The translations under genes and the position numbers were made by a program. Shown piece by piece: positions 6,151 to 52,462 of a stretch of 62,691 nucleotides of DNA. The DNA is taken from contig MGTD01000009.1 of assembly GCA_001799285.1 (NCBI GenBank), positions 1-62,691 of the forward strand, written 5' to 3'. Numbering within the stretch: position 1 is the stretch's first letter; each line of letters begins with the position of its first letter. This stretch comes from Deltaproteobacteria bacterium RIFOXYD12_FULL_56_24 (GTDB lineage: Bacteria; Desulfobacterota; Desulfobulbia; Desulfobulbales; Desulfurivibrionaceae). Below the pieces are notes generated by a model, which was given only the letters and a program-made list of their open reading frames with translations, ran no database searches and was not told where the DNA came from.

Positions 6151-6330
6151 GTAAGCAATCACAGGGCACCACATGTTGTCGGCACTTCTGCCGACGATTG
6201 ACAGCGGCGATCGGTCCGGCTCACGTACAAAAGTACGCATCGCCGTCCCGCTTGCCGCAACCTGCGGCACCCTGTGACCGCTTATTCCGTGGTTATTTGA
6301 CCTTTGTGGGTTAACCCCGTGATCGGTTAC
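6151..6330 (+). mobile_element. Palindromic IS66-type MITE, copy A
   Basis: 180-bp non-coding element starting GTAAGCAATCACAGG and ending GTGATCGGTTAC. Perfect 8-bp direct repeats TCTTCTGT flank it (6143-6150 and 6331-6338). Internally a long hairpin (left arm from 6151, right arm ending in ACCGCTTA at about 6284) is followed by a ~45-bp spacer and a second inverted end. GTAA termini with an 8-bp target duplication are the signature of IS66-family transposition. No transposase is encoded. It lies between the chemoreceptor terminator and glk. Confidence 0.88.
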
Positions 6331-11447: not shown

Positions 11448-11777
11448 TTGATGGACTCGTAACAACTCATTTTTTTAACGCAGAGACGCAAAGTCGCAAA
11501 GTTTTAATCATTCCTGATTAGCGCTAATCTTCCGCAAATCCCCTCTCCCTTGAGGGAGAGGGTTAGGGTGAGGGTGAACAGTCGCCGTTTAACCCCCTCA
11601 CCCCGGCCCTCTCCCCCACTAAAGCGGGGGAGAGGGGGTATTTTGCAACTGGCTCTCCTGGGTACAAATTACGTCTTGCGGAAGATTAGCGCTAATCAGG
11701 TAATCCTTTTATTTAAACATGTTGCCTTTGCGTCTCTGCGTCTTGACGTTACGTTTTTGTTGTTACGAGTCCATCAA
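11448..11777. repeat. Four-layer nested palindrome between pta and the RNA methyltransferase gene
   Basis: Three concentric perfect inverted repeats: 11448-11465 with 11760-11777 (18 bp), 11478-11493 with 11726-11741 (16 bp), and 11513-11537 with 11676-11700 (25 bp). In the centre is a CTCTCCC-type repeat pair (about 11539-11640). The 25-bp layer is flanked by near-identical octamers TAATCATT/TAATCCTT, suggesting it transposed into the others. Confidence 0.85.
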
Positions 11778-11779
11778 GG

Positions 11780-13663
11780 TTACGCCTTTGCTTCCAGTAA
11801 AATCATGATTTCAAGATTGGCCGAGCCGGGAAACATGTCCAGGGGGGCGATGCGCCGCACTTGGTAGCCGCCGGCCTGCCACTCCTTGAGGGAAGGCGGG
11901 ATCTGGTCCACCCCGCAGAAGATATGGAGCGCCTTTTGCGGTCTCCGGCGAGCCAGGGCTGCGATCACCCCCGGCAGCGTACCCTGGCGGGGCGGATCAA
12001 GCAGGATTACCTCGTTGCTCACGGGGGGAGGCAGAGTCTTTTCCAGATAGCCGACGGTGATTCGGTGGGCGAGAAATTTAGGAGCCGTTGCAAGATAATC
12101 TGTACCTTTCTGCCCTTCTTTACGGCTCCTTATGCCGTTCGCGGGTAAGCGATCACAGGGCACCACATCTTGCGGCGATCGGTCCGGCTCACGGGCATAA
12201 GTACGCATCGCCGTCCCGCTTGCCGCAACCTGCGGCACCCTGTGACCGCTTATTCCGTGGTTATTTGACCTTTGTGGGGTTGCCCCGTGATCGGTTACGT
12301 TCGCGGGATCACAACTGTGCAAATTATTTTGCAACGACGGCTTGGCCTGGCCGCCCCGCTTCTGGTTCAGACGGCTGTTGGCCTCGGCGGCCCGGATGGA
12401 AGGGCCTTCGCCGTCAACGGCCAGGACCTGCCGGTAATCGGGGGCGAGGTAATGGCTGAACAGGCCGTAGCCGCAGTACAGGTCGAGGAGGGACTGGTCC
12501 GGGGCCGGGGCCAGCAGTTCCCGCGCCCGCGTCAGCATGGTTTCCACCATGGATTCGTTGATCTGGGAAAACGAGGTCGGATGGAACTGGTAGCGGCAGT
12601 CATGGTAGGTGGCCATCAACTGGTCGGGGCCGAAGAGCTTTTTGAAATTGAGGGTCTCCGCCGGGCGTTTGCTTTCCAGATAGTAATCCGACTGGCTGGG
12701 GTCAAGGTAAACAAAGGCGGCGGTGACGGCAATGGGAAGCTTTTGGAGGTGCGCGCTCAGCAGTTTCAGTTTGCGGACCAGCGGCCCGTTCAGCAGATCC
12801 ACATTGAAGATCACCGCCTGCTCGGTATAGCCGCCGCGGATGATAAGATAATTGAGATGCCCGGCGATCAGCCGGAAGGCCGGCTCACTGAGTTTTTGCT
12901 GGAGAAAGCGGTAGATGATCTCGTGTTCCTTGGGCTCCAGGGGCGAGGCGGTAAAATACTGCCGGTTCTTGGGCAGGGCCGCTTTGTCTCCCAGAAGGAG
13001 ATACAGGGTGGAGCCATAAAGGAAACCCTTGCGCTTTGAGGTGGTGCGGTAGCCCCTGGCTTTGGGGGAGCGGATTACCTGTTCCGGCGAACCGGGCAGC
13101 CGGTGCTGTTTCCAGAAGGCCATCAACCCCTGGTCTTTTATCTGCAGCTCCAGGGAATAATCAAGATGGGCCAAAGGAGAGCTGTAGAGGATGGCCTGGC
13201 CTTCCGGGCCGATGGTTGAGGGAATAAGCGGCTTGAGAAAGCTGGCAAAGGAACGATCAGAGGTCGAGGCCGGTGTCCAGAACAGTTCCTCTTCGGATTT
13301 TTCCGGCTGCGGAGTTCTGCTGCGGGTAAAGCCATGTTCGGGAGGGGAAGCAGCCCCGCGATTGCGGGATTTTCTCGGCGACGGTTTTTCCGGCGGGGAT
13401 TTTCTTTTGGGGCCGGGCTGCCGCTCACTTGGGATGGCGGAGGTGCGAAAGGCTCCCTCTGCGGCTTGCTTCGGGCGTGATCTTCTGTTGCCGGTAAACT
13501 CACGCTCGGCAGCGGCAGCCGTGGCAGGTTGGCGGGCCTTTCTGCTCGAGGGGTTTTCCGGCGAGGGTTTACTCTTGCCTTGCGAGGGGCGACGGTTTTT
13601 TGCGGCAGTGGCCGGGCCTCCAGATGATGGGGTGCGGGTTGGTTTTTTTTTGCTTACGGACAA
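11780..13663 (-). CDS. TrmA/RlmD-type RNA (uracil-C5)-methyltransferase interrupted in frame by a mobile element
   Basis: 627 residues starting at a TTG. Residues 1-145 are a low-complexity Lys/Arg/Pro/Ser-rich extension, probably RNA-binding. The SAM domain has LLDLYCGYGLFSHYLAP (motif I, about 391-408), LAVDGEG (414-420), EVILLDPPRQG (551-561), HIFCGVDQIPPSL with the probable catalytic cysteine at 583, and SANLEI near the C-terminus with the probable base. Between VDGEG and the DPP motif, a 54-residue block bounded by two Pro-Ala-Asn triplets (453-455 and 507-509) is encoded by the IS66-type element at 12145-12298. A further ~30 unusual residues flank it. The frame stays open throughout. 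Substrate and residual activity are unknown. Confidence 0.85.
   Translation of the reverse strand: MSVSKKKPTRTPSSGGPATAAKNRRPSQGKSKPSPENPSSRKARQPATAAAAEREFTGNRRSRPKQAAEGAFRTSAIPSERQPGPKRKSPPEKPSPRKSRNRGAASPPEHGFTRSRTPQPEKSEEELFWTPASTSDRSFASFLKPLIPSTIGPEGQAILYSSPLAHLDYSLELQIKDQGLMAFWKQHRLPGSPEQVIRSPKARGYRTTSKRKGFLYGSTLYLLLGDKAALPKNRQYFTASPLEPKEHEIIYRFLQQKLSEPAFRLIAGHLNYLIIRGGYTEQAVIFNVDLLNGPLVRKLKLLSAHLQKLPIAVTAAFVYLDPSQSDYYLESKRPAETLNFKKLFGPDQLMATYHDCRYQFHPTSFSQINESMVETMLTRARELLAPAPDQSLLDLYCGYGLFSHYLAPDYRQVLAVDGEGPSIRAAEANSRLNQKRGGQAKPSLQNNLHSCDPANVTDHGATPQRSNNHGISGHRVPQVAASGTAMRTYAREPDRSPQDVVPCDRLPANGIRSRKEGQKGTDYLATAPKFLAHRITVGYLEKTLPPPVSNEVILLDPPRQGTLPGVIAALARRRPQKALHIFCGVDQIPPSLKEWQAGGYQVRRIAPLDMFPGSANLEIMILLEAKA
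12086..12336. repeat. Outer imperfect palindrome within the methyltransferase gene
   Basis: Arms 12086-12105 and 12317-12336 are complementary at 17 of 20 positions (CGTTGCAAGATAATCTGTAC type). They surround the IS66-type copy B. They suggest an earlier palindromic insertion, later hit by the second one. Confidence 0.55.
12145..12298 (+). mobile_element. Palindromic IS66-type MITE, copy B, inserted in a coding sequence
   Basis: 154-bp element beginning GTAAGCGATCACAGGG and ending GTGATCGGTTAC, nearly identical over most of its length to copy A. Perfect 8-bp direct repeats GTTCGCGG flank it (12137-12144 and 12299-12306). 154 + 8 = 162 bp = 54 codons, so the host reading frame is preserved; the duplicated octamer encodes the repeated Pro-Ala-Asn. 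Confidence 0.92.
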
Positions 13664-24761: not shown

Positions 24762-24916
24762 GTAACCGTTCAGCAGCACCACATCTTCGGACGATCGGCC
24801 CGGCTTACGTACAAGAGGTACGCAGCGCCAGTCCGCTTGTCCAAATCTGCACCACTGTTGAATGGTTACAGTTCGGTGGTTTTAGTACTTTGACGACCGC
24901 CCCGGTGAACGGTTAC
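24762..24916 (+). mobile_element. Palindromic IS66-type MITE, copy E
   Basis: 155-bp element from GTAACCGTTCAGCAG to GGTGAACGGTTAC, with perfect 8-bp direct repeats GAAAATCA (24754-24761 and 24917-24924). It lies 26 bp upstream of the PhnD-like sensor gene of the arr region and so occupies that gene's promoter region. Confidence 0.9.
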
Positions 24917-48429: not shown

Positions 48430-48655
48430 GTAACTGATCACAGGGGGGAGCCCCGGAAGGGAGTATGTCCCCGAACCCCGATAATCGGGATAAGTGTCTT
48501 ATCAGAAAAATTTCTTTGGAAAAGCAAGAAATTTTTCTGTAAGTCATTAAATAAGCGGTCTCAGGGTGCTGCAGGTTGCGGTAAGCGGCACGGCGATGCG
48601 TACGTACGTGAGCCGGCCCGATCGCCGCAAGATGCGGGGCCCTGTGATCGCTTAC
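48430..48655 (-). mobile_element. Palindromic IS66-type MITE, copy F
   Basis: 226-bp element with GTAACTGATCACAGG at one end and CCTGTGATCGCTTAC at the other. Flanking octamers TTTGGCCG (48422-48429) and ATTGGCCG (48656-48663) match at 7 of 8. The inner arm (GCGATGCGTACGTACGTGAGCC) is inverted relative to copies A and B. It is longer than other copies because of an extra AT-rich hairpin at 48504-48538. Confidence 0.8.
48504..48538. terminator. AT-rich hairpin within the spacer after the kinase
   Basis: Perfect 13-bp inverted repeat AGAAAAATTTCTT / AAGAAATTTTTCT with a 9-nt loop. It could act as a bidirectional terminator between the kinase and the convergent PilZ-type gene. Confidence 0.5.
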
Positions 48656-49550: not shown

Positions 49551-49706
49551 GTAACCGTTCACCGGGGCGGTCACCAAAGCACCAATAACCGCCGGACTGT
49601 AACCGTTCAGCAGTGCCGCAGATTTGGATAAGCGGATCGGCGCTGCGTACCTCGTGTACGTAAGCTGGGCCGATCGTCCGAAGATGTGGTGCTGCTGAAC
49701 GGTTAC
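49551..49706 (-). mobile_element. Palindromic IS66-type MITE, copy G
   Basis: 156-bp element with GTAACCGTTCACCGG and GCTGCTGAACGGTTAC as ends, flanked by perfect 8-bp direct repeats AATTACCC (49543-49550 and 49707-49714). It is in inverted orientation relative to copy E, with the same TTCAGCAG/CTGCTGAA arms. It lies in the 350-bp gap between the PilZ-type gene and the pseudouridine synthase gene, which otherwise holds nothing recognisable. Confidence 0.9.
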
Positions 49707-52330: not shown

Positions 52331-52462
52331 AGATTATCGCGGCTGAAGCCGCTCCTACCGGGTTGGGGCGTATCGATTGTTTGTAGATTATCGCGGCTGA
52401 AGCCGCTCCTGCCGGGTTGGGACGTATCGGTTGTTTGTAGGAGCGGCTTCAACCGCGATAAC
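52331..52462. repeat. REP-like cluster: tandem 54-bp units plus an inverted copy
   Basis: Two direct 54-bp units (52331-52384 and 52385-52438) each contain ATCGCGGCTGAAGCCGCTCCT; an inverted copy AGGAGCGGCTTCAACCGCGAT follows. The core matches the REP type well known from Pseudomonas. A second site is at 61469-61524. No RAYT-type transposase is in the window. At 52478-52543, next to the macB stop, is a remnant of the IS66-type family (GAGCCGGCCGATGAC, GTGGTGCTGCTGC). Confidence 0.8.

Follow-up and report, generated by a model that had tools for sequence, protein, structure and literature searches.

Miniature elements inserted in bacterial genes

Rickettsia palindromic elements (RPE) are presented, in the accessible parts of two accounts, as small mobile sequences that lie in frame within unrelated genes and are translated with them (PMC10969869, PMC2229807). 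According to the available sections of the second account, RPE measure 105-146 bp, their target duplication is listed as unknown, and a Gmk protein bearing an RPE was reported to be still active (PMC2229807). The same sections describe ERIC, Yersinia YPAL (RU-2) and the Neisseria Correia element as MITEs with open frames that are fused in frame to genes; ERIC and Correia have 5'-TA-3' termini, and Correia occurs in forms of 107 and 155 bp, the short form being the intragenic one (PMC2229807). In Coxiella, the elements QMITE1 and QMITE2 sometimes extend open reading frames or enter them in frame, QMITE2 being found mostly between genes or in 3' untranslated stretches and the in-frame mid-ORF cases being hypothetical proteins, as stated in the available part of the source (PMC5896051). 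The Chunjie MITE of Geobacter uraniireducens is multicopy, carries inverted and direct repeats and measures 178-235 bp; one copy is located in an operon and the others are intergenic, and the available excerpt mentions no in-frame gene insertion (PMC10969869). In this excerpt of a 2024 review of prokaryotic MITEs, protein change of the Rickettsia mode elsewhere in prokaryotes is called "conceivable" (PMC10969869). A sequence-only reading of the present locus had stated that protein-coding palindromic insertions are described in Rickettsia and are rare elsewhere; the first part stands, and the second has to be widened, since the excerpts cited also place such insertions, less often than in Rickettsia, in enterobacteria and Neisseria (PMC2229807) and in Coxiella.

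The element analysed here is a 154-bp MITE nested in an older, in-frame 102-bp repeat of an RNA methyltransferase gene, and we consider it, with a probability of roughly 0.9, to be selfish DNA resembling the Rickettsia palindromic elements and tolerated by its host protein as a translated linker. Three points go beyond the sequence-only reading: the MITE is nested in an older insertion, it recurs in other genes, and it bears an IS66-type signature. The likeness to RPE consists of in-frame insertion in unrelated genes and of a single peptide frame, here with nine interior cases; the differences are the organism, the length of 154 bp, the clear 8-bp duplications, the IS66-type ends and the nesting in a second in-frame repeat. 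By organism the element stands outside RPE, the named relatives of the host genus being Deltaproteobacteria/Desulfobulbaceae. By analogy, the tie to RPE is a likeness in behaviour and not membership, the comparison having been made with the description of RPE. IS66-family elements and IS-derived MITEs are alike in the GTAAGCG terminus and the 8-bp duplications, as far as the available excerpt describes them, and the MITE here is without a transposase gene. Correia, in the excerpt available, has two size forms, as is the case here, but its intragenic form is the short one (107 bp), whereas the frame-preserving form here is the one of 154 bp. Geobacter, the host of Chunjie, is a deltaproteobacterium.

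The interrupted gene and the inserted element

The window, i.e. the whole stretch of 62,691 nucleotides of DNA that was analysed, holds the following features at this locus:

11780..13663, minus strand: RlmD/TrmA-like RNA methyltransferase ORF with both insertions inside (627 aa counted from a TTG codon; the true start is uncertain)
12078..12136, minus strand: older 102-bp repeat, 3' part in gene sense, with the hairpin AGGAGCCGT...ACGGCTCCT
12137..12144: target site duplication, copy 1, GTTCGCGG, perfect 8 bp
12145..12298, plus strand: IS66-type MITE of 154 bp, of which the host reads the minus strand in frame 0
12145..12252: hairpin part of the MITE, about 108 nt (inverted repeat I1; RNA fold of the whole element; in other genera only positions 1-108 are matched)
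12253..12298: tail of the MITE, 46 bp, with a further copy of the terminus, GTGATCGGTTAC, at its end
12299..12306: target site duplication, copy 2, GTTCGCGG, perfect 8 bp
12299..12341, minus strand: older 102-bp repeat, 5' part in gene sense, one octamer copy included (by comparison with genomes G011 and G013 and 11 empty congeners)

The methyltransferase ORF matches PF05958 with an E value of 4e-16 over residues 339-434 (59.4 bits against a Pfam cut-off of 23), and the RlmD equivalog TIGR00479 (NCBIfam) gives 90.3 bits, below its cut-off of 183.55. RumA (PDB 1uwv) aligns with residues 355-434 and 551-623 of the query, i.e. on both sides of the insert, and in this alignment the SAM-binding half and the LDPPR/Cys half are both present; the motif FCGVDQ is presumably the catalytic Cys region. 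The protein has 88 residues more than most congeners, placed between the two RumA-aligned halves, and its ORF is free of nonsense or frameshift. An AlphaFold2 run on the methyltransferase with six sequences reached a mean pLDDT of 32 only, too low for use. The earlier identification of the host as an RNA methyltransferase gene entered in frame by a mobile element is borne out by the PF05958 match over cut-off and by the empty site in relatives. Between this ORF and a phosphotransacetylase-like ORF (named by eye), an inverted pair aacgcagagacgcaaagtcgcaaag / tttgcgtctctgcgtct flanks ccctctccc-type sequence at 11480-11740 of the window and resembles another dispersed repeat.

The MITE at 12145-12298 runs from GTAAGCGATCAC to GTGATCGGTTAC, with GTAAGCG at its left end, GTAACCG at its right end and a terminal inverted repeat of 18 nt (89% complementary). 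It is short, transposase-free and dispersed in multiple copies, with terminal inverted repeats, target duplications and empty sites, and these properties place it among the MITEs. Element and duplication together make 154+8 = 162 nt, or 54 codons, through which the host frame is open, so that the protein reads ...DPAN-VTDHG...PCDRL-PANG... at the insert. On re-measurement, the coordinates and letters of the 154-bp element and of its perfect 8-bp repeats were all as first described, and the stop-free passage of 162 bp or 54 codons was found again in the minus-strand ORF. The description as a mobile "palindromic" element holds in its first word; in place of a single palindrome there are two parts, a hairpin of about 108 nt and, behind it, a tail of 46 nt.

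In frame (-,0), i.e. the one in which the methyltransferase gene reads it, the MITE encodes the hydrophilic peptide VTDHG..SNNHG..REPDRSPQDVVPCDRL (GRAVY -0.83 vs -0.30 for (+,0)), which includes the segments SNNHGISGHR and EPDRSPQDVVPCDR. As minus-strand RNA, the whole MITE is predicted to fold with -83.2 kcal/mol (z -8.0), and the predicted folding is stronger for the coding strand than for the opposite one. An Rfam search gave zero matches over threshold in the window and two sub-threshold matches in four loci. Through the duplication, identical codons come to flank the mRNA hairpin, which is very stable (-83 kcal/mol, z -8.0), an arrangement that would suit translational bypassing between the duplicated codons; by this route, or by excision of the peptide, a normal mature enzyme would result. 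An open frame would then be unnecessary, yet interior insertions are open in 9/9 cases (see below), and inspection of the 54 residues by eye brought up no intein-like motifs; we regard skipping of the insert, at either the RNA or the peptide level, as highly improbable.

Empty sites in related genomes

Two relatives, G011 (Deltaproteobacteria bacterium RIFOXYD12_FULL_55_16) and G013 (UBA11700), align without a gap across the single octamer of the methyltransferase junction. Both lack exactly the 54 residues in question (2/2), in agreement with the gap that the sequence-only reading had proposed to look for in close homologues, and these residues are absent from every homologue examined. Junctions are equally gap-free in the orthologues of three other interrupted genes, coding for a helicase (5/5), a Ppx/GppA protein (4/4) and a metallophosphoesterase (5/5), some of these alignments having gaps elsewhere. 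Among the 16 congeners, the two helicase halves are adjacent and the block is absent in 16/16; Ppx/GppA is matched in 15 congeners, with both halves listed and adjacent in 10; and the metallophosphoesterase matches of 13 congeners all end at the junction. Compared with PDB chains, Ppx has an excess of 54 residues, the part of a DegT aminotransferase beyond its insert matches too weakly to be counted, and the alignment of a PBP4 protein is smeared across the insert. Exact empty sites are demonstrated, by alignment, for four genes (methyltransferase, helicase, Ppx/GppA and metallophosphoesterase), and each insertion that was tested occurs in a single species.

These alignments also bear on the possibility that a repeat copy was stitched into the gene by short-read assembly, as might happen in a draft genome of 67 contigs with many repeat copies. 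In the four genes tested, however, both flanks belong to the same gene, with the octamer exact or matching in 7 of 8 positions on each side; the duplications vary between copies; and the empty-site alignments contradict an assembly artefact, which therefore seems to us next to negligible as an explanation.

Putative affinity with IS66 elements

The signature of IS66, as given in the available part of the source, is a GTAAGCG terminus together with 8-bp duplications (PMC11946415). The label IS66-type, as applied here to the MITE, is drawn from its ends only and denotes a putative affinity. In two genomes (G002 and G004) of another genus of the family, IS66 elements have the ends GTAAGCGCTCA, alike in 10/11 positions to GTAAGCGATCA, the ends paired by script in these genomes being GTAAGCGCTCAGCAAACCCC and GTAAGCGCTCAATGAACCCC; no 8-bp duplication was seen around the IS66 elements of these two genomes. 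The IS66 transposase (PF03050) was found neither in the source genome nor in its 16 congeners (0/17 of the genus), and it is encoded in 3/27 genomes of the family, all three in one other genus. Because PF03050 was not found in the genus and no duplications were seen at the sister-genus IS66 elements, we only infer the mobiliser, an IS66-family transposase that would act in trans on the MITE, and the IS66 partner would be lost, unassembled or elsewhere. The genus of G002, G004 and G005 is a possible source lineage of this putative mobiliser.

Copies of the element

Further copies are present in the window:

6151..6330, plus strand: second MITE copy, 180-bp variant
24776..24916, plus strand: diverged subfamily copy (70% over 143 nt)
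48550..48655, minus strand: hairpin-only MITE copy of about 108 bp
49551..49692, minus strand: diverged subfamily copy with a GTAACCGTTCAGCAG end (72% over 145 nt)

The source genome (3.04 Mb in 67 contigs) contains at least about 40 strong copies, the best 40 of 291 first-look candidates having been scored, and its terminus pattern has 252 matches against 8 for a reversed control, with up to two matches per copy; the source species probably carries more than a hundred copies. From this genome, 88 unique near-full copies were examined, in stretches that either resemble the element or match its terminus; some few (e.g. L181-L183) were picked via a match to the element's peptide, so that part of this sample leans to open frames. 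The length is exactly 154 bp in 54/88 copies, and the 8-bp duplication is perfect in 52/88 and matches in at least 7 of 8 positions in 74/88. When the left flank of one copy was paired with the right flank of another as a control, the rates of matching were 0.0001 for 8 of 8 positions and 0.0011 for 7 of 8, and the 52 exact duplications are therefore far beyond chance. Length plus duplication is a multiple of three in 67/88 copies (variants of 154, 208, 211 and 226 bp); the 108-bp form with its duplication makes 116 nt and would break the frame.

Close copies are almost confined to the source species, two congeners having one 95% copy each. The hairpin core was found in 38/193 genomes and 17/62 genera sampled in the order. 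First-look candidates for the MITE core number 172-329 in G002, G004 and G005.

Insertions in other genes

The 88 sites were classified by a six-frame scan and then by a gene-call census; the coding scores of either were trained on the window and are homology-free, and the two results agree. Sites were counted as interior when at least 24 codons separated them from either end of the called gene. All nine interior sites are open and none is closed, while 4 sites near a gene end are open and 22 closed, and 53 sites have no called gene across them. If position were irrelevant, nine open interior sites out of nine would be expected about once in 100,000 (13 open of 35). Every closed site in this census either has a gene end within fewer than 24 codons or falls where no gene was called. 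Since ORFs of at least 250 aa cover 47.6 of the 62.7 kb of the window, 9 interior sites among 88 are also far fewer than random landing would give. Probably the MITE lands widely and selection purges the insertions that break genes. Sequence comparison demonstrates that the MITE is mobile, that it inserts with a target duplication, that the frame is preserved and that interior sites differ from terminal ones.

The nine interior hosts are the methyltransferase, a ResIII/DEAD helicase (72-codon variant), PBP4, Ppx/GppA, the metallophosphoesterase, the DegT aminotransferase, an HD-domain protein, a multihaem cytochrome and a doubtful YkuD-like ORF (id 20). Three of these, the cytochrome, the HD protein and id 20, have the insert in their N-terminal region, 26-38 codons after the called start. 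Seven of the eight genes outside the window pass their Pfam cut-off. In the eighth, id 20 (L018), the insertion is likewise interior and open by gene call, yet the YkuD match is under the cut-off, and this gene was not retained as a ninth well-supported case; eight interior cases are well supported.

Several other sites were set aside. The first scan had given 15 sites with a broken spanning ORF. Five candidates for broken interior genes (ids 29, 70, 50, 28 and 83) were rejected, the site lying at most 23 codons from the end of the likelier gene, and three more (ids 62, 26 and 77) also belong to the closed sites near a gene end or outside called genes, their long ORFs being judged, by score and not by homology, to be antisense or upstream. 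An apparent insertion after codon 5 of MutS (L005) was left out, as congener N-termini differ and the start codon is uncertain; id 44 was left out of the count, as were an EnvC-like (L012), an LptA-like (L238) and a PP2C-like (L163) gene, all in frame, near-terminal and named from translation alone. In the LptA-like gene (L238, G000:C7:29300-32600), the MITE sits in frame straight after MKPFLRFF, ahead of the signal peptide core, and the EnvC-like gene (L012) is similar.

Reading frame and strand

Among the 154-bp copies, two frames are mostly open, (+,0) in 45/54 and (-,0) in 48/54, and the other four of the six are usually closed: frame 1 because the GTAA end supplies TAA, and frame 2 because its consensus has inner stops. 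Over all 88 copies, read-through was found for 52 in (+,0) and 59 in (-,0). Under a stricter test, coding on both sides of the insert, zero (+,0) copies and seven (-,0) copies were retained, one of the latter upstream of a hemH-like start; ids 11 and 66 fail this test. In all nine interior insertions the host gene reads the minus strand of the element in frame (-,0), which has a p of about 0.004 at equal chances and of about 0.04 on the near-end baseline.

Of the 26 copies near gene ends, 18 have the element minus strand in gene sense, a preference that the reading frame does not explain. A simple scan for terminators inside the MITE, tried as a cause of the strand preference, found none. The strand preference is real in the data; given the lean of the near-end copies, its interpretation as an effect of the peptide is only moderately supported.

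One may go further and propose that the MITE itself has been shaped for life inside genes, the 46-bp tail having turned the 108-bp hairpin into a frame-preserving 154-bp unit whose (-,0) frame would supply a soft hydrophilic linker. The same-strand lean of copies near gene ends (18/26) lowers the odds of such an adaptation, which we judge rather unlikely. If it were true, this would be selfish DNA that is harmless at the protein level and therefore free to spread to probably more than a hundred copies.

Selection on interrupted genes

In eight neutral host ORFs, about 14.9 nonsense mutations would be expected since insertion and 0 were observed, with a P of about 3e-7 when the copy-to-consensus divergence of 3-8% is taken as post-insertion, or of about 6e-4 if half of the copy divergence predates insertion, the ORFs having been preselected as open, which flatters the result. 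The dN/dS values of four interrupted genes (0.15-0.31) compare with those of uninterrupted pairs (0.12-0.34), a comparison with little power for recent insertions.

The sequence-only reading had left the host enzyme as either tolerating the insertion or being neutralised. Under the second option, the gene would be dispensable, recently hit, open by mere luck and on its way to a pseudogene, and this agrees with the addition of 88 residues within the catalytic domain and with homology scores under the NCBIfam cut-offs. Neutralisation is nevertheless unlikely in our view: interior insertions are open in 9/9 cases, the methyltransferase ORF is without nonsense or frameshift, dN/dS is like that of the controls, both halves still align with RumA, and a relative carries three tandem copies of the older repeat at this place, in frame too. 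As all nine interior insertions are open and dN/dS is as in uninterrupted orthologues, tolerance is the better supported of the two options, as judged from the sequences. Under tolerance, the surviving interior inserts would be translated as a linker that the protein accepts, and the methyltransferase would still be made, probably as a working enzyme whose SAM-binding and DPPR halves are set apart by 88 additional residues.

An older repeat beneath the element

The older repeat measures 102 bp (34 codons), is palindromic and lies in frame in the methyltransferase gene, with the MITE nested inside it. In 11/16 congeners and in 2 other genomes of the family, residue 440-441 of the methyltransferase is joined directly to residue 527-529; as to the remaining congeners, two are without a match for the gene and one ends at a contig edge. 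G011 carries three tandem in-frame copies of the 102-bp unit at the same site of the methyltransferase gene (G011:C36:12943-13252; L022, L051, L068), and in G013 the contigs break within the 102-bp unit of this gene. The unit is itself dispersed, with matches in 17/17 genomes of the genus, and its target duplication is at most AA. No further intragenic insertion with coding on both sides was found among 23 near-full copies of the unit in the loci retrieved, by a scan that is insensitive and missed the known G011 copies.

Repeats were also noted at other places. Three copies of the 102-bp repeat with a spacing of about 101 bp adjoin a gene in G014 (G014:C9:81110-81418; L059, L071), and G010 (L078) has a tandem of this repeat at a place apparently orthologous to the triple of G014. 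In the window, two tandem 54-bp units, AGATTATCGCGGCTGAAGCCGCTCCTACCGGGT..., lie at 52331-52440. The methyltransferase gene of G013 (L023, about 1345-1505) holds another MITE-type insert, in frame and near the N-terminus, whose peptide ends with VVPCDRLPGREF.

Such recurrence could be taken to mean that the inserted peptide was adopted as a useful linker or regulatory segment of its host proteins: the peptide frame is identical in every interior case, and the methyltransferase gene was hit in three related species, including the second MITE-type insert of G013. The insertions tested are, however, private to one species, the host proteins have no evident common function, and tolerance explains the data with benefit being unnecessary, so that exaptation appears quite unlikely.

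Significance

In the literature searched, most subscription journals being outside its coverage, no report of in-frame MITE insertion in Deltaproteobacteria or Desulfobacterota was recognised. As far as these searches show, four things are new here: the lineage; the exact duplications together with an IS66-type identity; the rule, seen within one genome, that interior insertions are open; and an in-frame insert nested in an in-frame repeat. The analysis provides a concrete desulfobacterial case from an uncultured bacterium, in whose genome eight genes or more are interrupted, with sister-species empty sites for the four that were tested. The methyltransferase gene has been hit repeatedly, by the older repeat, by its tandem triplication in a relative, by the MITE described here and by a MITE-type insert in a third species. 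Nature has, in this way, set up an experiment in which enzymes take in 34-88 new residues, and it offers a clean test of whether this tolerance depends on the peptide.
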